Assembly (NCBI GenBank): GCA_017405765.1
Contig: JAFQZS010000050.1
Location: 1 to 64,000, forward strand
Origin: Clostridia bacterium
Lineage (GTDB): Bacteria; Bacillota; Clostridia; Oscillospirales; RGIG577
Reading direction: 5' to 3'
DNA: 64,000 nucleotides
Of this stretch, positions 16,282 to 57,023 are shown in pieces. Below the pieces are notes generated by a model that saw nothing but the letters and a program-made list of their open reading frames with translations, had not been told where the DNA came from and did no database searches. Within the stretch, counting starts at the first letter, position 1; each line of letters begins with the position of its first letter. The position numbers and the translations under genes were made by a program.

Positions 16282-17355
16282 ATGAACAACAGGGCAATTA
16301 TTGCAATGAGCGGCGGCGTAGACTCAAGCGTTGCAGCTCTTATCATGAAAGAAAACGGATATGACTGCATAGGCGTTACTATGCGGCTGTTTTCAAACGA
16401 GGATATAAAAGTTTCAAACGAACGCACCTGCTGTTCTCTTGACGATGCGGAAGATGCGCGCGCAGTCGCCCGCTCTCTCGGCATACCGCACTATGTCTTT
16501 AACTTTTCCGATAAATTTAAGGAATATGTTATCGAAAGATTTATATATGCATATGAAAACGGCATGACCCCCAATCCGTGCATAGACTGCAACAGATATC
16601 TGAAATTTGACAAGATGTTCCTTCGCGCGCAAGAGCTCGGCTGCGACCGCGTCGTAACGGGACATTACGCGAGGATCGAATTCGACGAAAAATCGGGACG
16701 ATATCTTTTAAAAAAAGGCTCCGATCCAAAAAAGGACCAAAGCTACGTGCTCTATTCAATGACGCAGGAGCAGCTAAAGCACACGATATTCCCGCTAGGC
16801 GCCATGACGAAAGCGCAGATACGAAAGATCGCCGAAAAAAACGGCTTTGTAAACGCCAAAAAGCACGACAGCCAGGATATATGCTTTGTCCCCGACGGAA
16901 AATATGCCGATTTTATCGAACGATACACGGGCAGAACGTACCCCGAGGGCGATTTTATAGATATAAGCGGACATGTGCTGGGCAGACATAAGGGCATAAT
17001 AAGATACACCGTAGGACAAAGAAAAGGACTTGGGCTTTCCATGCCCGAGCCCGTATATGTGTCAAAAATAGATCCGCTTGATAATACGGTCACGCTTTCA
17101 AAAAACAGCGAGCTTTTTTCAAACGTGCTTATCGCAAAGAACATAAACCTTATCCCCGTAAAAGAAATAACCTCTCCCATACGTCTTACGGCCAAGGTGC
17201 GCTACCGTCATCCCGAGTCTCCGGCTTTAGTCACTCAGCTTGACCGAGACGTCATAAGAGTTGAATTCGAAACGCCGCAGCGCGCTGTTACGCGCGGTCA
17301 GGCCGTCGTATTATATGACGGCGACGTCGTGTTCGGCGGAGGAACTATCGTTTAG
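16282..17355 (+). CDS. mnmA: tRNA-specific 2-thiouridylase MnmA
   Basis: 357 residues, normal length. PP-loop AMSGGVDSSVAAL at the N-terminus binds ATP. The two catalytic cysteines lie in NPCIDCNRYLKF and SQDICFVPDG. It adds sulfur to U34 of tRNA-Lys, -Glu and -Gln, taking sulfur from a cysteine desulfurase; nifS lies 2 kb away in the same island. Probably co-transcribed with hydE (40-base gap) and perhaps with the following C39-like gene (37-base gap). The ATG follows AAGAGGTAAC. Confidence 0.95.
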   Translation: MNNRAIIAMSGGVDSSVAALIMKENGYDCIGVTMRLFSNEDIKVSNERTCCSLDDAEDARAVARSLGIPHYVFNFSDKFKEYVIERFIYAYENGMTPNPCIDCNRYLKFDKMFLRAQELGCDRVVTGHYARIEFDEKSGRYLLKKGSDPKKDQSYVLYSMTQEQLKHTIFPLGAMTKAQIRKIAEKNGFVNAKKHDSQDICFVPDGKYADFIERYTGRTYPEGDFIDISGHVLGRHKGIIRYTVGQRKGLGLSMPEPVYVSKIDPLDNTVTLSKNSELFSNVLIAKNINLIPVKEITSPIRLTAKVRYRHPESPALVTQLDRDVIRVEFETPQRAVTRGQAVVLYDGDVVFGGGTIV

Positions 17356-48207: not shown

Positions 48208-48256
48208 AAAAAAGCTTTGGCAGAATGCGTTCTTACGCTTTGCCGAAGCTTTTTTG
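48208..48256. terminator. Terminator between the VWA and recombinase genes
   Basis: AAAAAAGCTTTGGCA / TGCCGAAGCTTTTTT stem. It overlaps the last codons of the converging recombinase gene and can work in both directions. Confidence 0.85.
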
Positions 48257-48865
48257 TTCCTGCGCTTTCAGCTCTTCCGTCCTCACCCACTTAAGGAACG
48301 TCTTATGAGTGATACCCATTCTGTTCGACGCTTCTCTTGCAGAAATACGGCCTTCCATATATTTTGATTTTATTTCATTAAAACCATGCGGGGGCTTCTT
48401 CGGTCTTCGCCCCAACTTTACCCCGTTCGCCTTTGCCGCCGCTATTCCTTCAGCCTGCCTCTGTCTTATAAACTCACGTTCCGTCTGCGCCACATAGCTT
48501 AAAAGCTGCAAAACTATATCGGCAATGACCGTGCCCGTAAGGTCCTTTTTCCCCCGCGTGTCCAAAAGCGGCATGTCCAGCACGACTATCGCCGCATTTT
48601 TATCCTTCGTTATTATCCGCCACTGCTCCAATATCTCTTCGTAGTTTCTTCCCAGTCTGTCAATGCTTTTTATCACCAGCGTATCGTTTGGCTTCAGATT
48701 ATTTAGCACACGAATATATCCGGGACGATCAAAATCCTTTCCCGAGAGCTTATCGCCGTATATATTTCTCTTTTCTATGCCGAACTCTCTCATTGCCTCG
48801 ATCTGACGTTGTTCATTTTGGTCATGCGCCGACACGCGGATATAGCCGTATGTAATATTTTTCAT
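48233..48865 (-). CDS. Small serine recombinase (resolvase/invertase family), orphan
   Basis: 210 residues. Catalytic N-terminal domain: YIRVSAHDQNEQRQ with the nucleophilic Ser, then the GDKLSGKDFDRPGY and KSIDRLGRNYEEI motifs. A C-terminal helix-turn-helix follows (ISAREASNRMGITHKTFLKW). Length and layout match Hin/Tn3-type resolvases. No transposase, cargo or clear recombination-site repeats lie next to it, so its target is unknown; it may be a relic of a mobile element or a DNA invertase acting elsewhere. The start at 48865 follows ACGGAGG. Confidence 0.92.
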   Translation of the reverse strand: MKNITYGYIRVSAHDQNEQRQIEAMREFGIEKRNIYGDKLSGKDFDRPGYIRVLNNLKPNDTLVIKSIDRLGRNYEEILEQWRIITKDKNAAIVVLDMPLLDTRGKKDLTGTVIADIVLQLLSYVAQTEREFIRQRQAEGIAAAKANGVKLGRRPKKPPHGFNEIKSKYMEGRISAREASNRMGITHKTFLKWVRTEELKAQEQKSFGKA

Positions 48866-49004
48866 AGTATAACCTCCGTTGGCCAATGATGCTTTTTTGT
48901 CTCATTATACTTATATTACCCTTCGATATTTTTCACATATTTTCTTAGAAAAAGGTGTTATTTCTGCATTTTTCACCGAAAAGAAAAAAATATGCGCAAA
49001 TATA

Positions 49005-49033
49005 TTGACATCATTTTACTTGGCGATTATAAT
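49005..49033 (+). promoter_or_regulatory. amt promoter
   Basis: TTGACA (49005-49010), 17-base spacer, TATAAT (49028-49033), a near-perfect core promoter. The predicted transcription start is at about 49040, 190 bases before the ATG. Confidence 0.8.
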
Positions 49034-49042
49034 GCGAATTGT

Positions 49043-49058
49043 AAAACAAAGGCGTTTT
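49043..49058 (+). promoter_or_regulatory. First hexaloop hairpin in the amt leader (ANTAR-like)
   Basis: AAAAC - AAAGGC - GTTTT: a 5-bp stem with a six-base loop having A at position 1 and G at position 4. Its 3' arm overlaps the 5' arm of the first terminator, so the two structures exclude each other. Confidence 0.55.
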
Positions 49059-49088
49059 TAAGCATATCCGCTTAAAAACGTCTTTTTT
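49053..49088 (+). terminator. First terminator in the amt leader
   Basis: Perfect 11-bp stem CGTTTTTAAGC / GCTTAAAAACG with a 6-base loop, then TCTTTTTT, within 50 bases of the start site. Confidence 0.8.
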
Positions 49089-49116
49089 GTTTTAAGCTCA
49101 TAATGATCCGCGCGGC

Positions 49117-49132
49117 AAGACAACGGCGTCTT
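49117..49132 (+). promoter_or_regulatory. Second hexaloop hairpin in the amt leader (ANTAR-like)
   Basis: AAGAC - AACGGC - GTCTT: a 5-bp stem with a six-base loop, again A1 and G4, and GGC shared with the first loop. The loop and 3' arm form part of the second terminator's 5' arm, so formation of this hairpin would prevent termination. Confidence 0.6.
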
Positions 49133-49161
49133 CGGGAATACTCCCAAAGGCGCCGTTTTTT
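49122..49161 (+). terminator. Second terminator in the amt leader
   Basis: AACGGCG.CTT.GGG / CCC.AAG.CGCCGTT stem with a 6-base loop and six T, 68 bases before the amt ATG. Confidence 0.8.
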
Positions 49162-49229
49162 GAGTTTAAAACATGTTTTTTCTAAAAGCCGTTCATTATA
49201 GCGGCAAACATTATAAGGAGATGATATAA

Positions 49230-50987
49230 ATGGATGACGTAATTAGAGAGTTGGTTTCTGCCTCTGCGTCCGAACAGGTCTTCGGCGTGTGGTTTCTTAT
49301 AGGAGCCGCACTCGTATTCTGGATGCAGGCAGGCTTTGCAATGGTAGAGGCCGGTTTTACGCGGGCAAAGAATACGGGCAACATCATAATGAAGAACCTT
49401 ATGGACTTCTGCATCGGCACTGTTGTTTTCATACTCATTGGCTTCGGCCTGCTGATGGGAGAAGACGTTCTGGGCTTTATAGGAAGACCCGGCTTCGACC
49501 TGTTTACGGCATACGCGGATTTCGATTTTTCCGGCTTTGTATTTAACCTGGTATTTTGCGCCACTACCGCTACTATCGTTTCGGGCGCGGTGGCAGAACG
49601 CACCAAATTCCTTTCTTACTGTGTTTATTCTGCCATTCTCTCGGCGCTTATATACCCCATAGAGGCGCATTGGATATGGGGCGGAGGCTGGCTTTCGCAA
49701 ATGGGTTTTCACGATTTTGCGGGCTCCTGCGCCATACATATGGTCGGCGGTATATCGGCCTTAATAGCCGCTAAGATACTCGGTCCTCGTATAGGAAAGT
49801 TTACTTGCGACAAAAACGGAAAAGTTACAAAGGTAAACGCCTTCCCTGGCCACAACATTGCTCTCGGCGCTTTGGGCGTTTTTATCCTTTGGCTCGGATG
49901 GTACGGATTTAACGGAGCTGCAGCGACTACCGTTGACCAGCTTGGCTCGATCTTTCTTACGACTACCGTTTCCCCCGCAGTTGCTACCGTCGTATGCATG
50001 ATATTTACATGGGTAAAATACGGCAAGGTAGACGTTTCGATGTGCCTTAACGCTTCGCTTGCGGGACTCGTTGCGATAACCGCAGGCTGCGACGTTACGA
50101 GCGCCTCGGGAGCGGCTGTCATCGGCGCGGTCGCAGGCTTGCTTGTCGTATTCGGCGTATGGCTTCTCGATCATAAGCTTCATATTGACGATCCCGTCGG
50201 AGCAGTTGCGGTTCACGGAATAAACGGCATTTGGGGCACATTGGCCGTTGGACTGTTCGCAACTTCCGACGCGCCGGGATATGCCGTTTCAAATGCATCG
50301 GGCGAAACGCTTACAGGCCTTTTCTACGGCGGCGGATTTGAGCTTTTGGGCATACAGGCTTTGGGCTTTGTCTGTGTTTCGGCATGGACAGCAGTGACAA
50401 TAACGATTGTTTTCCTTATTATCAGACATACGATAGGTCTTCGCGCTTCAAAAGAAGATGAGCTTGCGGGCCTCGATGCATCGGAGCACGGTCTCCCCTC
50501 TGCATATGCCGGCTTTGCAATGCTGCCCGATTACGTTGACGAGGGTGCTGCGCCCGTCGTCGTTTCGGGTGATATTCCCGTTTCCGAGGCCGTTCCCGTA
50601 AGAAAAATGCCCGTTTTCAGCGATGATAGACCTAAATTCACAAAGGTCGAGATAATCTGCAAGGAATCTCGCTTTGAAACGCTTAAAAATGCGCTTATGG
50701 ATATAGGCATAACAGGAATGACGGTATCGCACGTTTTAGGGTGCGGGCTCCAAAAGGGCAAGCCCGAATTTTACCGCGGCGTTCAGATGGAGGCCACTTT
50801 GCTTCCCAAAATACAGATAGACATCGTTGTAAGCAAGGTGCCCGTCCGCAGCGTTATTGAGACCGCGAAAAAAACGCTCTATACCGGACATATAGGCGAC
50901 GGCAAAATATTCGTCTACGACGTTGAAAACGTAGTAAAGGTGCGCACCGGCGAAGAAGGCTACGATGCGCTGCAGGATGTGGAATAG
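49230..50987 (+). CDS. amt: Ammonium channel fused to a P-II regulatory domain
   Basis: 585 residues. Residues 1-415 form an Amt channel with eleven membrane segments (HMVGGISAL and VHGINGIWG carry the pore histidine pair; FWMQAGFAMVEAGF near the start). A linker (about 420-470) leads to a C-terminal P-II domain (about 472-585) with a T-loop GCGLQKGKPEFYRGVQ, including the Tyr of uridylylated P-II proteins, and a GDGKIFVYDV B-loop. Standard Amt and GlnK are separate proteins; here the gate is tethered. By family the P-II part blocks the channel when nitrogen is plentiful. Leader with two terminators and hexaloop hairpins. Confidence 0.95.
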   Translation: MDDVIRELVSASASEQVFGVWFLIGAALVFWMQAGFAMVEAGFTRAKNTGNIIMKNLMDFCIGTVVFILIGFGLLMGEDVLGFIGRPGFDLFTAYADFDFSGFVFNLVFCATTATIVSGAVAERTKFLSYCVYSAILSALIYPIEAHWIWGGGWLSQMGFHDFAGSCAIHMVGGISALIAAKILGPRIGKFTCDKNGKVTKVNAFPGHNIALGALGVFILWLGWYGFNGAAATTVDQLGSIFLTTTVSPAVATVVCMIFTWVKYGKVDVSMCLNASLAGLVAITAGCDVTSASGAAVIGAVAGLLVVFGVWLLDHKLHIDDPVGAVAVHGINGIWGTLAVGLFATSDAPGYAVSNASGETLTGLFYGGGFELLGIQALGFVCVSAWTAVTITIVFLIIRHTIGLRASKEDELAGLDASEHGLPSAYAGFAMLPDYVDEGAAPVVVSGDIPVSEAVPVRKMPVFSDDRPKFTKVEIICKESRFETLKNALMDIGITGMTVSHVLGCGLQKGKPEFYRGVQMEATLLPKIQIDIVVSKVPVRSVIETAKKTLYTGHIGDGKIFVYDVENVVKVRTGEEGYDALQDVE

Positions 50988-51034: not shown

Positions 51035-51595
51035 TTACAAAAAGACTATCGTCTTCCCGTTATATCGTCCCCGTATGTATTCCCCGTTTTTTATGTGATA
51101 TTCATAAAAATCTCGCTTCGGCGTCGCGCGCGCCTCGAGTATCGCCATTATCACCCCTCCGTGGATCACAAACGCGGCACTTGAGCCGTCGGGCACGCTT
51201 CTAATCGCTTCATCAAAGGCTTTTACGCATCTTTCCTTAAAGTGCGCAACACTTTCACCATTCGGTATATCGGAGAGGCAGCCCGATTCGACCCACGCGC
51301 GGTATTCGGGGCAGCATTCTAGCTCGCGCGCCGTCTTTCCCTCGAATATGCCGAAGTCAGTCTCCTTAAAGCCTTCGTACATGATAAATCGCCTCTTCGG
51401 AAATATAAGCTCTGCAGTTTCGTAAGTCCGCTTCATCGGGCTTACAAAAATATGATCGGGGGTAAATCCCTCTTTTTTAAGCGACAGCGCCTGTTTTATG
51501 CCCTCCGCACAAAGCGGCTCGTCCGTTCGTCCGACGTATCGCCTCAAAAGATTGCCCGCCGTCGCTCCGTGGCGGATAAATATAACGTCGATCAT
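51035..51595 (-). CDS. cobC: Histidine phosphatase, probable alpha-ribazole-5'-phosphate phosphatase
   Basis: 186 residues. Phosphoglycerate-mutase fold: IRHGATAGN with the phosphohistidine, a SPMKRTYETAEL Arg and a FVIHGGVIMA His. The ATG overlaps the cobS stop by four bases. Being the last gene of a cobalamin operon, its likely job is removal of the phosphate from alpha-ribazole phosphate or adenosylcobalamin 5'-phosphate (CobC). The start at 51595 is chosen because of this overlap and the canonical MIDVIFIRHG beginning. Confidence 0.85.
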   Translation of the reverse strand: MIDVIFIRHGATAGNLLRRYVGRTDEPLCAEGIKQALSLKKEGFTPDHIFVSPMKRTYETAELIFPKRRFIMYEGFKETDFGIFEGKTARELECCPEYRAWVESGCLSDIPNGESVAHFKERCVKAFDEAIRSVPDGSSAAFVIHGGVIMAILEARATPKRDFYEYHIKNGEYIRGRYNGKTIVFL

Positions 51596-52356
51596 CTTAT
51601 AAGAGCTCCTATCAATACGCCGGCAAGGCATAAAAGCTCGCAGACTTCTAAAAAAAAGCCCGCCGTATCGCCGGTAACTCCCCCAAACTGCTTCATTGCC
51701 GTATGTGTGTATAAAAGCACCCACAAAACCGAAAGCACGGCGGCAAAAATGCCGCACGGCGGCGATATTATTATCATAAGCACGCACGCAGCCGCCGCTG
51801 TTATAAGCGCCGCAAGCTCCGCTTTCGATTTTTCGGTGCTTTCGGTATAGTAAAGAAGCATGCCCATGCCTCTCGCATTCGGAAGCCGCAACGCCAAAAA
51901 GGCCGAAAGCGCGCGCGATATAATGAACACAGGAAAAGCCGCAGAAAAAGCCCTCAATATATACAGCTCGTTTGTCAGCGCGAAGTATATTATAAAATAT
52001 ACTACGATATAGATAAGAGCAAAGGCTCCCGTGTGAGGGTCCTTCATTATTTCAAGCTTTCGTTCGCGCTCTCTGTGCGAACAAATCGCATCCACCGTGT
52101 CCATGTAACCGTCGAGATGAATGCCTCCCGTTATAATTACAGGCAAAGCGGACGCGACAGCCGAAAACATAATACCGCTTAGTCCTGCGGCAGCTGAAAG
52201 CTTATACCAGACTAAAAGAATAACGCCGATTATAACTCCGACTGCCGGAAAAAAGCATATGGCGTATTTCATCGTGCGTTCGTCAAACCGAGACTGCGGC
52301 ACGGGTATCGCGCTGTAGGTTGACAGCGCGGTAAGAAACGCTTTAAAAAATATCAT
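51592..52356 (-). CDS. cobS: Adenosylcobinamide-GDP ribazoletransferase (cobalamin synthase)
   Basis: 254 residues, an integral membrane protein with about six segments. The family motif GGIHLDGYMDTVDAICSHRERERKLEIMKDPHTGAF (in part GGIHLDGYMDTVDAICSHRE) holds the Mg-binding Asp residues. It joins adenosylcobinamide-GDP with alpha-ribazole. Its 5' end overlaps cobU by 14 bases and its 3' end overlaps cobC by 4. Confidence 0.95.
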   Translation of the reverse strand: MIFFKAFLTALSTYSAIPVPQSRFDERTMKYAICFFPAVGVIIGVILLVWYKLSAAAGLSGIMFSAVASALPVIITGGIHLDGYMDTVDAICSHRERERKLEIMKDPHTGAFALIYIVVYFIIYFALTNELYILRAFSAAFPVFIISRALSAFLALRLPNARGMGMLLYYTESTEKSKAELAALITAAAACVLMIIISPPCGIFAAVLSVLWVLLYTHTAMKQFGGVTGDTAGFFLEVCELLCLAGVLIGALIR

Positions 52357-52864
52357 TTTCTGAGCCTTTCACATATAAATGTTTTTTATTCTTCATTATG
52401 ATAACAGCGTTCGCCGAATTTGAAAGCTTTTCGTTCAATTCGTTAAGCGCGCTGATATAGTGCGCGGTATCTTTATCAAAGCCTTCTTCGGTAAGTCCCG
52501 ATATGGTAACGGCAACGAGGATATCGCATCTGTCCTTAAGCTTCAGAATATCGGAATAAACGCTTTCCAAAGAACCCCTGCCTTCAAAAACAGTGTTCGC
52601 AAGCAGATTAGACACATCCTCAAGAAGCACGGCGCTATAGCGCGCGATATCTGCATCGCTCACCGAATACTGAAGCTCAAGAGTTTTAAAGCCGTATCGT
52701 GCGCGCGCAGCCTTATGCTTTTTTATACGTTCATGGTTTTCTTCGGTCACCGGCGTCATCGTCGCTATATAATATCGCTTTTCGCCGCTTTTTAGAATAA
52801 GCTGTTCGGCAAACGCGCTTTTGCCGCTGTTGTTTTCGCCCATTACAAGCACAAGCCTGCCCAT
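52343..52864 (-). CDS. cobU: Adenosylcobinamide kinase / guanylyltransferase
   Basis: 173 residues. The P-loop is GENNSGKSAFAE where CobU usually has GGxRSGKS, a small deviation. HERIKKHKAARARYGFKTLE holds the conserved His-x-x-Arg-x-x-x-His pattern, including the guanylated His. It activates adenosylcobinamide for joining the lower ligand. The start at 52864 follows GGGAGG. Overlaps cobS. Confidence 0.88.
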   Translation of the reverse strand: MGRLVLVMGENNSGKSAFAEQLILKSGEKRYYIATMTPVTEENHERIKKHKAARARYGFKTLELQYSVSDADIARYSAVLLEDVSNLLANTVFEGRGSLESVYSDILKLKDRCDILVAVTISGLTEEGFDKDTAHYISALNELNEKLSNSANAVIIMKNKKHLYVKGSENDIF

Positions 52865-52896
52865 TATATCCTCCCGCAATTTATGATACGCTAAGC

Positions 52897-53967
52897 CTAT
52901 ATTTCGCGCCTTATATCTTCAAGGTACGAATCGTCAATACCCGCCTCATCAAACGTCGCCATATTATTGACGACCTCGCACGAAGCTCTAAGCGCCGCAA
53001 GCGCGAACGGGCAGCCGCTGCCCTCGCCAAGGCGCATATCGAAATCAAACAGCGGTCTAACTTTAAGCGCCTTTGCCGCCTCTTTATACCCTAGTTCAAC
53101 AGATGCATGGCTTGGTATCAGATATCCCAAAACGTTCGGACAAAGCTTTACGGCGCAAAGTGCGGAAACAATGGAAATAAAACCGTCGATGACTGCAGGC
53201 TTTTTAAAATATGCCGCGCCTAAAAACGCGCCGCACATTGCCGCTATATCAAATCCGCCGACTTTTGAAATGACGTCTAAAACATCGTTCTTATCCGGCC
53301 TGTTTATTTCTAAGGCGGCGCGTATAACTGCTTTTTTGTTTTCAAAAGCCGCGTCAGTAAGACCGCCTCCGCGCGACGTCACGCTTGTTACATCTGTATC
53401 CAAAAGCGCGCAAAGCACCGCAGAGGCCGTTGTCGTATTTCCTATACCCATCTCCCCTATACCTACGGCGTCGGCTTTTGTTATCTCCACAACTTCAAAG
53501 CCCGTAAGCACAGCCCTAAGCGCCTGATCTCTTGTCATGGCTGCGCCTGTCGAAATGTCATGCGTACCATAGGCTATCTTTTTATTTATTACATCCGTGC
53601 ATGAAACATCGCCGTTTATGCCCACGTCGCAGACGGTCACGCCGCAGCCGAAAGTCTTAGCCAAAACAGCGGCTCCCGTTCTGCCCTGTGCAATATTTAC
53701 GGCTTGCTTTAACGTAACGCTCTGCGGCGCGCTCGATACGCCTTTTGAAACAACGCCGTTGTCTGCGGCGAACACCAGAAGCTGCGTCTTTTTTATCTCA
53801 TTGTGGACCTGTCCCGTTATCCCCGCTGCCTGGACCGACAGCGCTTCAAGCCTTCCCAAGCTTCCAGGCGGCTTTGCAAGCCTGCTTTGACGCTCTCTCG
53901 CCGCATCCATTGCCGCCGTATCGAGCGGGCGCACCGAAGCTTTAAGATAGTTTAACCTTTTCTCCAT
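52897..53967 (-). CDS. cobT: Nicotinate-nucleotide-dimethylbenzimidazole phosphoribosyltransferase
   Basis: 356 residues, the usual size. Family motifs KPPGSLGRLEALSVQAAGITG near residue 31 (in part PPGSLGRLEALSVQAAG), FAADNGVVSKGVS, GEMGIGNTTTASAV and LGEGSGCPFAL with the catalytic Glu. It makes alpha-ribazole phosphate from dimethylbenzimidazole or another base. The ATG follows AAAGGAGAGG. Confidence 0.96.
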   Translation of the reverse strand: MEKRLNYLKASVRPLDTAAMDAARERQSRLAKPPGSLGRLEALSVQAAGITGQVHNEIKKTQLLVFAADNGVVSKGVSSAPQSVTLKQAVNIAQGRTGAAVLAKTFGCGVTVCDVGINGDVSCTDVINKKIAYGTHDISTGAAMTRDQALRAVLTGFEVVEITKADAVGIGEMGIGNTTTASAVLCALLDTDVTSVTSRGGGLTDAAFENKKAVIRAALEINRPDKNDVLDVISKVGGFDIAAMCGAFLGAAYFKKPAVIDGFISIVSALCAVKLCPNVLGYLIPSHASVELGYKEAAKALKVRPLFDFDMRLGEGSGCPFALAALRASCEVVNNMATFDEAGIDDSYLEDIRREI

Positions 53968-53981
53968 ATACGCCTCTCCTT

Positions 53982-54503
53982 TTAAAATTCCACTCCGCGG
54001 CGTGCCGCTATACCTCTGTCGTAAGGATGCTTTATTTTCTTCATTTCGGTAACATAATCGGAAAGATCTATAAGCGCATCAGAGGGATATCGCCCCGTCA
54101 ATACAAGCTCGAGGCCTGCGGGCTTTCTCTTTATATAATCCGTAAGCATCGCCTCCGAAATGAGCTTATGGCTGCAGGCCGATATTATCTCGTCAAGTAT
54201 AAGCATATCCACTCCGTTTTCGCTCTTTTTTACTGCATTTTTAAAAAGCTCGCAGTAGGCGTGCGCGGCTTCTTTTCTTTCTTCATCGCTCATATGCTTA
54301 AAAAAACCGTAATTCTTTTTGCATACTTCTATGCTGATATTCTCAAACTTTTCGAGAGCCTTTATTTCCGAAGATGAGCCGTCCTTTAAAAACTGCACGA
54401 ACAAAACGCGCATGCCCGCGCCTGCCGCGCGCAAAGCAAGCCCTGCGGCGGCAGTCGTTTTACCCTTGCCTTCTCCGCAGTAAATGTGCAAAAGCCCCGC
54501 CAT
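53982..54503 (-). CDS. cobO: Corrinoid adenosyltransferase CobA/BtuR/CobO type
   Basis: 173 residues. P-loop CGEGKGKTTAAAGLALRA, followed by VLFVQFLKDG and LDEIISA. It transfers the adenosyl group of ATP to cob(I)yrinate diamide. The ATG at 54503 follows AGAGG by seven bases; a GTG two codons earlier is next to the ribosome site and less likely. Two bases after cbiP. Confidence 0.94.
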   Translation of the reverse strand: MAGLLHIYCGEGKGKTTAAAGLALRAAGAGMRVLFVQFLKDGSSSEIKALEKFENISIEVCKKNYGFFKHMSDEERKEAAHAYCELFKNAVKKSENGVDMLILDEIISACSHKLISEAMLTDYIKRKPAGLELVLTGRYPSDALIDLSDYVTEMKKIKHPYDRGIAARRGVEF

Positions 54504-54505
54504 AT

Positions 54506-55969
54506 TCACACCTCTTTATTCAAAATACGATAAATAAGCTCCATATCTATGTTTTCTCTGACGATACGGGCAAGCAAGTCGTACTCACGTTCTTTATACA
54601 CTTTCGTATCGTAAGCATTAATGAGAGACGGATCTACACCTTTTTCGGCGCAGAGCGCATGAATAATGCGTTCGCTTATCCCTTCGGCGTCGAATATGCC
54701 GTGTATATACGTGCCGTAGACGTTTCCCTTCCCCGAAAGAGGCGAAGACTCTTGTGCGCTTCGTCCCATGTGTATCTCATATCCCTCGTAAGAAAGGCCG
54801 TTCAAAGAAGAAAGCACGCCCTCAACTGAGGAAAAAACGCCTCTTGTCTGCGTCTGCACCTTATCTTTAAAAAATACCGTATCCATATCAAGCATCTCCA
54901 TGCCTCGCACGGACGACGTATTTTCGCTTTCGCTGCCTCCCTCGTCCGTAATGCTTCGTCCGAGCATCTGATATCCGCCGCAGACGCCCATAACGGGCGT
55001 ACCGTTTGAAGCCGCATGCTTTACGGCTGCCTCAAGTCCGCGCGATCTAATCCACTTTAGATCCTCTATCGTGCTTTTCGTACCAGGTATCATTATCATA
55101 TCCGCACCCTCAAGCTCGCGCGGATGCGTTACGTACCTTAACGATACGCTGTCGTAGCGCTCAAAGGGCGAAAAATCGGTAAAGTTGGAAATGCGCGGCA
55201 GGCGTATTACGGCAATATCTATGAGCCTTCTCTTTTTATCGTTCGAAAAGCGCTTTGTTAAGCTGTCCTCGTCGTCAATGTCGATATTCATATACGGTAT
55301 GACCCCCGCTACTGGAACGCCGCAAAGGTCCCTTAAAATATCAAGTCCCGGTTCAAGTATCGTTCTGTCGCCTCTGAATTTATTTATGACCGTCGCCTTT
55401 ATTCGGGCGCGCTCCTCGCCTGATAAAAGCGCCACCGTGCCGTAAAGCTGCGCGAACACGCCGCCGCGGTCTATATCTCCGACCAGCAGTACGGGCGCGT
55501 CTACCATGCGCGCAAGCCCCATGTTCACGATATCGTCTTTATTTAAATTTATCTCCGCCGGACTTCCCGCGCCTTCTATCACTATAACGTCGTATTCTTC
55601 GGAAAGGCTTTCATACGCCGCCATTATATCGGGGATAAACTCACGCTTTTTTTTATAGTATTCCGCAGCTCTCATATTGCCCAAAACGCGGCCTCCGACG
55701 ATGACCTGACTTCCCATATCCGTAGTAGGCTTTAACAGTATGGGGTTCATCCTTACGTCAGGCGCAATGCCGGCCGCCTCCGCCTGTACTGCCTGTGCGC
55801 GCCCCATCTCGCCTCCGTCGGACGAAATAAAGGAATTAAGCGACATATTCTGGCTCTTAAACGGCGCGGCGCGAAGTCCGTCCTGCCTGAAAATGCGGCA
55901 TAATGCGGCGGCAAGCAAGCTTTTCCCCGCGTTTGACATTGTACCCTGTATCATAATATTCTTAGCCAT
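54506..55969 (-). CDS. cbiP: Cobyric acid synthase
   Basis: 487 residues. N-terminal P-loop-like IMIQGTMSNAGKSLLAAALCR, GAGSPAEINL, and a C-terminal glutamine-amidotransferase-like domain with GVCGGYQMLG carrying the nucleophilic Cys and a later GYEIHMG His region. It amidates four carboxylates of adenosylcobyrinate diamide. Its ATG overlaps the cobD gene by 8 bases. Confidence 0.97.
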   Translation of the reverse strand: MAKNIMIQGTMSNAGKSLLAAALCRIFRQDGLRAAPFKSQNMSLNSFISSDGGEMGRAQAVQAEAAGIAPDVRMNPILLKPTTDMGSQVIVGGRVLGNMRAAEYYKKKREFIPDIMAAYESLSEEYDVIVIEGAGSPAEINLNKDDIVNMGLARMVDAPVLLVGDIDRGGVFAQLYGTVALLSGEERARIKATVINKFRGDRTILEPGLDILRDLCGVPVAGVIPYMNIDIDDEDSLTKRFSNDKKRRLIDIAVIRLPRISNFTDFSPFERYDSVSLRYVTHPRELEGADMIMIPGTKSTIEDLKWIRSRGLEAAVKHAASNGTPVMGVCGGYQMLGRSITDEGGSESENTSSVRGMEMLDMDTVFFKDKVQTQTRGVFSSVEGVLSSLNGLSYEGYEIHMGRSAQESSPLSGKGNVYGTYIHGIFDAEGISERIIHALCAEKGVDPSLINAYDTKVYKEREYDLLARIVRENIDMELIYRILNKEV

Positions 55970-57023
55970 ATCTTTTCTCCAAAACAGCGTTTGTGAGCGC
56001 TTTGATAAGAGCTTCGTTGTCCTTTTGTATTCTTACCGACGCCCTGTACCAACCCTCTCCCAGTCCATGAAAATCTGCGCAGTTTCTTATGGCTATCCCC
56101 TGCTCTTTAAGCGGGATATGAAGTCCCTCTTCGCCGTAAAACATAAGAAAATTCGCGTCTGACGGGCATACCCAAAATCCCAGCCCTTCAAGCTCCTTTT
56201 TAAGCCATGACCTCTGTATTTCTATGAGCGAACGCGCGCTTTTTAAAAAATCTGTCTCGCTTAGAGCCGCAAGACCGGCCTCCTGCGATATTACCGACAC
56301 ATTCCACGGCTGTACCTCGCAAGACATCTTTGAGATAAGTTCGCTGTCGCTTGTAAGCGCATATCCCAGGCGCGCTCCCGCCATGCCGAAATTCTTTGTA
56401 AATGCCTTCAGAATAAACAGGCCGGAACATTCCGAAATATACCTTTTCAGGCTTTCGCCTCCGTTTGTAAGGTCAAGAAAGCACTCGTCTAAAAAAAAGG
56501 CCGTTCCCGTGTCGACGCAAAGATCGAGTATCTTGATCAAAGTGCGCTCGGATATAAGCCTTCCCGTCGGATTGTTTGGATTGCATAAAAATACTGCGTC
56601 GGGAGATTTTTCTTTTATAAAATCAAGAAATCCTTCCCCAAGGGCAAATCCGTTCTCACGCGCAAGTTCATATCTGTATACTTCGCAGCCCGCGCGCCCG
56701 AGCGCCCTTTCATACTCCGAAAACGTGGGCGCAGTCAAGACTGCGCGCCCCGGCAAAAGCGCGCCGCAGTAAGCGTATATAAGCTCTGACGCGCCTGCGC
56801 CGAAAATGATATTCTCTTTTTTTATATTCTCATACTCCGCGACAGACTCAGTAAGTCTGCGGCAATAAGGGTCGGGGTAAACGTGTATGCGCTCGGCTGC
56901 ACGGCGAACGGCATCTTTAACGCTTTCGGGCGTTCCTAGCGGATTAATACTCGAGGAAAAGTCAAGCGTGATGTTTCCCGAGTATATATCGCCGCCATGG
57001 GGATTTTTTGTATTATAAAGCAT
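55962..57023 (-). CDS. cobD: L-threonine-O-3-phosphate decarboxylase CobD (class I aminotransferase fold)
   Basis: 353 residues. HGGDIYSGNITLDFSSSINPLG near the start (in part LDFSSSINPLG), CNPNNPTGRLI, and the PLP lysine in FILKAFTKNFGMAGARLGYA. It makes (R)-1-amino-2-propanol phosphate, the linker of cobalamin, used by CbiB, encoded just upstream. A histidinol-phosphate aminotransferase is the main alternative, but context favours CobD. Confidence 0.9.
   Translation of the reverse strand: MLYNTKNPHGGDIYSGNITLDFSSSINPLGTPESVKDAVRRAAERIHVYPDPYCRRLTESVAEYENIKKENIIFGAGASELIYAYCGALLPGRAVLTAPTFSEYERALGRAGCEVYRYELARENGFALGEGFLDFIKEKSPDAVFLCNPNNPTGRLISERTLIKILDLCVDTGTAFFLDECFLDLTNGGESLKRYISECSGLFILKAFTKNFGMAGARLGYALTSDSELISKMSCEVQPWNVSVISQEAGLAALSETDFLKSARSLIEIQRSWLKKELEGLGFWVCPSDANFLMFYGEEGLHIPLKEQGIAIRNCADFHGLGEGWYRASVRIQKDNEALIKALTNAVLEKRYG

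Follow-up and report, generated by a model that had tools for sequence, protein, structure and literature searches.

RNA hexaloops with an A at the first and a G at the fourth loop position (A1/G4) are the known ligand of ANTAR domains. EutV-type RNAs have two hexaloops, separated by a linker of 5–12 nt, both of which are required for antitermination (PMC3369931, PMC8934654). With a linker of 3 or 14 nt, EutV-dependent induction is strongly reduced in vivo, and antitermination in vitro is lost altogether once 20 nt are added (PMC3369931, PMC8934654). As for the actinobacterial ANTAR targets, they are defined as a dual stem-loop with a linker of 2–25 nt (PMC8164766). For Firmicutes and Proteobacteria, ANTAR target RNAs have also been predicted at nitrogen genes, ammonium transporters included (PMC3369931), and NitR, an ANTAR antiterminator of Clostridium saccharobutylicum, is reported in a review to induce GS/GOGAT genes when nitrogen is limiting (PMC6316151, after Stutz et al. 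2007).

The window analysed here, i.e. the whole stretch of 64,000 nucleotides at positions 1 to 64,000 of contig JAFQZS010000050.1 of a Clostridia bacterium (assembly GCA_017405765.1), carries two A1/G4 hexaloops in the leader of an ammonium transporter gene (amt). The first-pass annotation had described there a strong promoter followed by hexaloops overlapping terminators 1 and 2 (T1 and T2); its coordinates and description proved accurate, and the arrangement is far beyond chance expectation (Table 1). With a probability of about 0.76, this leader consists of two tandem ANTAR-dependent attenuators, in which each terminator has its own single hexaloop and no recruitment hairpin (P1) is present. 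The basis of this reading was computed: it comprises both alternative structures with their covariation, conservation, the position of the promoter, the presence of an ANTAR gene, its co-occurrence with the element, and the nitrogen regulon.

Compared with EutV/EutW of the Enterococcus faecalis eut operon, the locus shares an A1/G4 hexaloop on a short stem that overlaps the 5' arm of an intrinsic terminator, an ANTAR protein encoded in the genome and a target gene tied to nitrogen. It differs in that the eut RNAs combine P1 and P2, whereas here one hexaloop per terminator is found at the 5' end of the transcript, in tandem units 58 nt apart; also, EutV is a phosphorylated response regulator, whereas the ANTAR protein of the window genome has a degenerate receiver. 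NitR is comparable as an ANTAR protein linked to the genes of GS and GOGAT, the ANTAR gene of the window genome adjoining glnA in a GOGAT cluster; this comparison covers protein and target genes as given in the review (PMC6316151). The predicted targets of Firmicutes and Proteobacteria (PMC3369931) and of actinobacteria (PMC8164766) likewise have A1/G4 hexaloops before nitrogen genes, but both searches demanded a dual stem-loop, by which the layout found here was excluded.

Table 1. Features of the amt leader and of the gene behind it (positions are those of the window)
Feature	Position	Strand	Details and evidence
Sigma-A promoter TTGACA-17-TATAAT	49005–49033	+	Consensus matches 12/12; same distance to hexaloop 1 in relatives
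Predicted transcript start	near 49040		About 7 nt past TATAAT (promoter match only)
Hexaloop hairpin 1 (putative antiterminator 1), aaaac-AAAGGC-gtttt	49043–49058	+	Loop 49048–49053; sequence, A1/G4 enrichment, stem covariation
Intrinsic terminator 1 (T1) with U tract	49048–49091	+	Hairpin part about 49048–49085, then U tract; terminator covariation, model R1 E = 1.1e-7
Linker between both hairpins	49059–49116		Exactly 58 nt; loop to loop 74 nt
Hexaloop hairpin 2 (putative antiterminator 2), aagac-AACGGC-gtctt	49117–49132	+	Loop 49122–49127; sequence, kept in two leaders of the same genus (L004 and L005)
Intrinsic terminator 2 (T2) with U tract	49122–49161	+	Hairpin part 49122–49157, then U tract; model R1 E = 4.3e-7
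Controlled gene: ammonium transporter (Amt) with C-terminal P-II domain fusion	49230–50987	+	Pfam PF00909, PF00543; ORF

At T1 and T2 alike, the 5' arm of the terminator consists of the hexaloop together with the 3' strand of its stem, so that in both units hexaloop and terminator are mutually exclusive, as is general for ANTAR target RNAs. The general definition also extends to the loops, both of which begin with A, have G as their fourth base and are carried by a stem of 3 bp or more. The folding z-scores are -6.7 for T1 and -3.9 for T2, with none of 200 shuffles folding equally well. The hexaloop hairpins alone reach -0.5 and -3.2 kcal/mol vs. -23.4 and -27.6 kcal/mol for the terminators, and a bound factor would therefore be needed to hold them. 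When growing 5' fragments were folded, hexaloop 1 was present at 20–24 nt and again at 36 nt, and T1 by 40–44 nt.

Concerning the surroundings of the leader, the Amt–P-II fusion places the transporter and its own regulator domain in one chain, so that transporter and nitrogen sensor are made together. The nearest upstream gene is a divergent serine recombinase gene (Mpi/resolvase-like; 48233–48886, minus strand). On the other side, amt is neighboured by a minus-strand gene run (51035–57023) that looks like a cobalamin-biosynthesis cluster, its genes resembling CobS, CobU, CobT, CobA, CobQ and CobD; this assignment of the gene run goes by the appearance of the sequence only.

Leaders of amt were gathered from 59 related genomes and from 80 named contigs, mostly of uncultured gut and rumen Clostridia (e.g. 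Lachnospiraceae, Butyrivibrio and Roseburia), giving 109 leaders in all. Among terminator-overlapping hexaloops with a stem of at least 4, A1/G4 was found in 54 of the 109 leaders, every other combination at loop positions 1 and 4 in at most three, and A1/G4 numbered 0–1 in dinucleotide-shuffled leaders. A slightly looser definition gave 82 units, distributed over 69 leaders (57 with one unit, 11 with two and 1 with three), with A1, A2 and G4; the loops are thus conserved among relatives, a point on which the earlier proposal of an ANTAR target had been made to depend.

Covariation was first measured on loops chosen without any stem condition (n = 86), against column shuffles. Stem pairs 2–5 are formed in 81, 79, 68 and 55 of the 86 loops, for shuffled means of 65, 42, 41 and 36, and show many compensatory types; pairs 6–8 are at baseline, from which a hexaloop stem of 5 bp follows. 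What the leaders have in common is a hairpin of 5 bp, closed by a C-G pair, with the loop AANGRN, mostly AAAGGC. On one and the same alignment (alignment A1), the covariation score is 0.62 for the hexaloop stem (0.24 shuffled; slid controls at most 0.11) and 0.61 for the terminator stem (0.23 shuffled). Covariation of both mutually exclusive stems on a single alignment is as expected of a switch.

Two leaders of the same genus, L004 and L005, keep the double arrangement, with a loop spacing of 72–73 nt. Beyond the two units shared with the window, L004 has a third one, ggc-AAAGGC-gcc (L004:1394–1447, plus strand), and the number of units thus varies within one genus. In the L073 and L200 leaders, which are otherwise identical, loop position 1 is G for A (GAAGGC and GACGGC). 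As for leaders without a unit, several of them (e.g. L062, L064 and L067) show amt directly after a reading frame ending ...YWPFPTYGDLLFSVR, which was taken for the end of GS III. With GS III read as directly preceding amt, the leader would sit upstream of GS III in such loci, and elements before GS III do occur in genomes of that kind.

The position of the unit relative to the promoter is equally constrained. The -10 box ends at most 20 nt from the hexaloop stem in 53 of the 69 first units, and transcription covers a median of 5 nt, and never more than 14 nt, ahead of the stem, with the start assumed about 7 nt past the -10 box and predicted from promoter matches only. So near the start, an upstream hairpin cannot be accommodated. 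A partner in the EutV position, i.e. an A1/G4 hexaloop 16–40 nt upstream, was found for 4 of the 82 units, below the 12% obtained at random positions in the same leaders, nor was there enrichment at 10–45 nt upstream; this search covered A1/G4 hexaloops only. Near the ANTAR genes of the short loci L034, L036, L039 and L043, no classical dual hexaloops were found. Tandem leaders repeat the entire hexaloop–terminator unit, with linkers mostly of 34–61 nt and outliers of 101 and 213 nt, and the 58-nt linker of the window is typical among them.

These observations bear on the view of the leader as a classical EutV-type P1–P2 pair with a very long linker, in which hexaloop 1 would recruit the ANTAR dimer and pass it on to hexaloop 2, T1 being secondary. 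Two A1/G4 hexaloops do exist, and their spacing is conserved in the genus (72–74 nt), but this view is unlikely: the second hexaloop lies behind 58 nt instead of the tolerated 5–12 nt, when a linker of 14 nt or an added 20 nt is already enough to cripple or abolish EutV function, and hexaloop 1, unlike a recruitment hairpin lying upstream of the terminator without overlap, overlaps a covarying terminator of its own. Also, only one hexaloop is present in most relatives and in all other targets of the window genome. The first-pass annotation had likened the two hexaloops to the paired stems bound by ANTAR antiterminators, and in the sense of a stretched P1–P2 pair this did not hold up; its further suggestion, of a separate action of each hairpin with the terminator that it overlaps, is preferred, since most relatives have a single hexaloop–terminator unit from which the partner hexaloop is absent. 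Within the open-access literature, a geometry with a single hexaloop for each terminator, placed at the 5' end and often the sole one, appears to be new. Judged from their sequences, the leaders look like single-hexaloop sites acting on the transcribing polymerase.

A search of the genome for an ANTAR-domain response regulator had been named as a check. Exactly one ANTAR protein is encoded (P0002, 189 aa; 59 bits), with a C-terminal ANTAR domain (PF03861, 56 bits, residues 133–184). Its gene directly follows the one for glutamine synthetase and precedes purF and carAB, the surrounding cluster being that of the split glutamate-synthase genes. The check thus succeeded as to the presence of the protein and failed as to an ordinary phospho-accepting regulator, the acidic pair being absent from the receiver and the phospho-acceptor position being occupied by Asn. 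In an alignment of P0002 with 29 relatives, most of the 30 proteins have Asn at the phospho-acceptor position, 3 have Asp, and the N-terminal acidic pair is kept only in L036; the residue aligned with the aromatic of EutV that stacks on G4 (Tyr164) is Tyr or Phe in 29 of the 30. The closest solved relatives are AmiR (1qo0) and Rv1626 (1s8n). AmiR resembles P0002 in having a receiver incapable of phosphorylation, a pseudo-receiver governed by a partner protein; that partner is AmiC, whereas beside the P0002 gene no such partner gene was seen. The leader of the GOGAT-glnA-ANTAR cluster itself shows the same order of promoter, hexaloop and terminator, with one hexaloop (atgaac-AAAGGC-gttcat), which suggests positive autoregulation.

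A covariance search for the motif, one of the checks named in advance, ranked both amt units first and second in their own genome, a result that is not independent, the model having been trained on amt leaders only; nitrogen genes were also matched, and the matches at GS III, asnA and nifH genes are, by the same token, independent support. Behind the amt units came asnA (C41:51310) and a PPDK_N gene (C47:5376), with further matches at the GOGAT leader (C41:51097) and a peptidase C26 gene (C36:5616). All the matches kept have a hexaloop and an adjacent TTGACA-type promoter, which amt unit 2 shares with unit 1, and the asnA, GOGAT, peptidase C26 and PPDK_N leaders carry a single hexaloop each. 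The asnA gene and the GOGAT-glnA-ANTAR cluster are divergent (C41:51097–51362; L002, about 16598–16863), with one unit per leader, about 150 nt apart. Downstream of C47:5376 (L145), an unusual protein is encoded, in which the PPDK ATP-binding domain was recognised. Note that terminator-like matches of the model, e.g. C9:20393 and C9:48223, were set aside as ordinary terminators, having no hexaloop or no adjacent promoter.

Among the relatives, 28 of 29 located matches are found in front of a GS type III, amt, asnA or peptidase C26 gene, with Pfam confirmation for one GS III and one AsnA and assignment by sequence likeness for the rest; the lone exception lies before a DNA-binding response regulator gene. 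An even sample of the phylum gave few strong matches, before GS III, asparagine-synthase-like, amt and nifH genes, as well as before a corrinoid-protein-like gene and one unidentified small gene. The nifH leader (L210, genome G142) seemingly has two tandem units, gc-AAAGGC-gc and ggc-AATGGA-gcc, with loops 41 nt apart. In gene content, the predicted regulon fits the nitrogen regulon of NitR.

The element and the ANTAR genes largely occur together. The element is present in 36 of 39 ANTAR-positive vs. 5 of 20 ANTAR-negative genomes (Fisher p = 2e-7) and, in good assemblies only, in 33 of 36 vs. 2 of 13, although the genomes compared are related members of one order and such p-values therefore overstate independence. 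ANTAR is present in each of the 17 genomes that have a hexaloop in the amt leader, and in all 8 distant genomes of the phylum sample with a match, against 65 of 119 overall. Conversely, the 95% complete genome G017 (L196) has a perfect element before asnA while an ANTAR protein was not detected, possibly owing to an assembly gap, and four other ANTAR-negative genomes have model matches, two of them being 55–60% complete. These five cases would fit a nitrogen attenuator read by another RNA-binding protein or a small molecule, the link with ANTAR reflecting shared ancestry of nitrogen gene sets. We consider this quite unlikely, given that the A1/G4 hexaloop is a known ANTAR ligand, that co-occurrence is strong and that one ANTAR gene lies inside a controlled cluster, an ANTAR protein of Clostridium being moreover reported to control GS/GOGAT genes. 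It is very improbable that T1 and T2 are ordinary terminators of neighbouring or read-through transcripts, with the small hairpins arising by coincidence. AAAGGC...GCCTTT is common as a terminator base, and the covariance model matches ordinary terminators in the window genome as well, but those matches come without hexaloop stem and promoter. The upstream recombinase gene being divergent, T1 and T2 are not the end of another gene and sit between a perfect promoter and amt; the specificity for A1/G4 would be left unexplained, and covariation of the hexaloop stem contradicts coincidence. Attenuation of another type, by a riboswitch, a T-box or a leader peptide, has just as little to recommend it. 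Alternative structures before a nitrogen gene are its usual setting; yet the Rfam scan of the window returned only tRNA at the gathering threshold, all matches in the leader being far-below-threshold chance ones, and the conserved part, a hairpin of 16 nt plus a terminator whose sequence varies, is too small for a ligand pocket. Unit 1 also starts a few nucleotides past the predicted start, which leaves a leader peptide before T1 no room.

Two tandem attenuators, each with its own hexaloop, are thus retained as the preferred reading. Nitrogen-controlled antitermination, as proposed by the first-pass annotation, is likewise favoured at the sequence level by the ANTAR gene, the conserved loops, covariation, co-occurrence and the nitrogen regulon. 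The mechanism would probably be a variant of ANTAR antitermination that controls nitrogen assimilation without a recruitment hairpin, through a NitR-like protein. The polymerase would start about 7 nt past TATAAT, and the first 20 or so nucleotides would yield the 5-bp hairpin with the loop AAAGGC. When nitrogen is plentiful, this hairpin would remain unheld, its loop and 3' strand would go into T1 and transcription would stop. Under nitrogen shortage, the hexaloop would be bound by the sole ANTAR protein of the genome, which is NitR-like and has a degenerate receiver, and T1 would be blocked. On reaching unit 2, with the loop AACGGC and T2, the polymerase would be subject to the same decision again before the Amt–P-II fusion gene, and the two units, acting as gates in series, would be expected to lower leakage and to steepen the response. 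That one hexaloop is sufficient, as we infer, runs against EutV, the only well-tested system, because EutV needs both hexaloops and a short linker.

More tentatively, and at somewhat less than even odds, these leaders may represent a distinct class of ANTAR targets, in which a single 5'-end hexaloop serves as recruitment site and antiterminator at once, without P1. Such a class would provide the main nitrogen control of amt, GS type III, GOGAT, asnA and some nif genes across Clostridia. Its reader would be an ANTAR protein with a degenerate, non-phosphorylated receiver, nitrogen being sensed via another partner (e.g. glutamine synthetase, the PII domain or glutamine), and tandem copies would act as serial gates.

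In front of their nitrogen genes, many gut Clostridia show this single-hexaloop layout, and the published searches in the open-access literature would pass such leaders over, as they used the published definition of ANTAR targets, with two hexaloops and a short linker. If one 5'-terminal hexaloop suffices, the recruitment hairpin would not be generally needed, and the role of P1 would become directly testable by setting EutV-type against single-hexaloop leaders. In that case, a nitrogen regulon and its probable master regulator could also be assigned for a large number of uncultured gut Clostridia.
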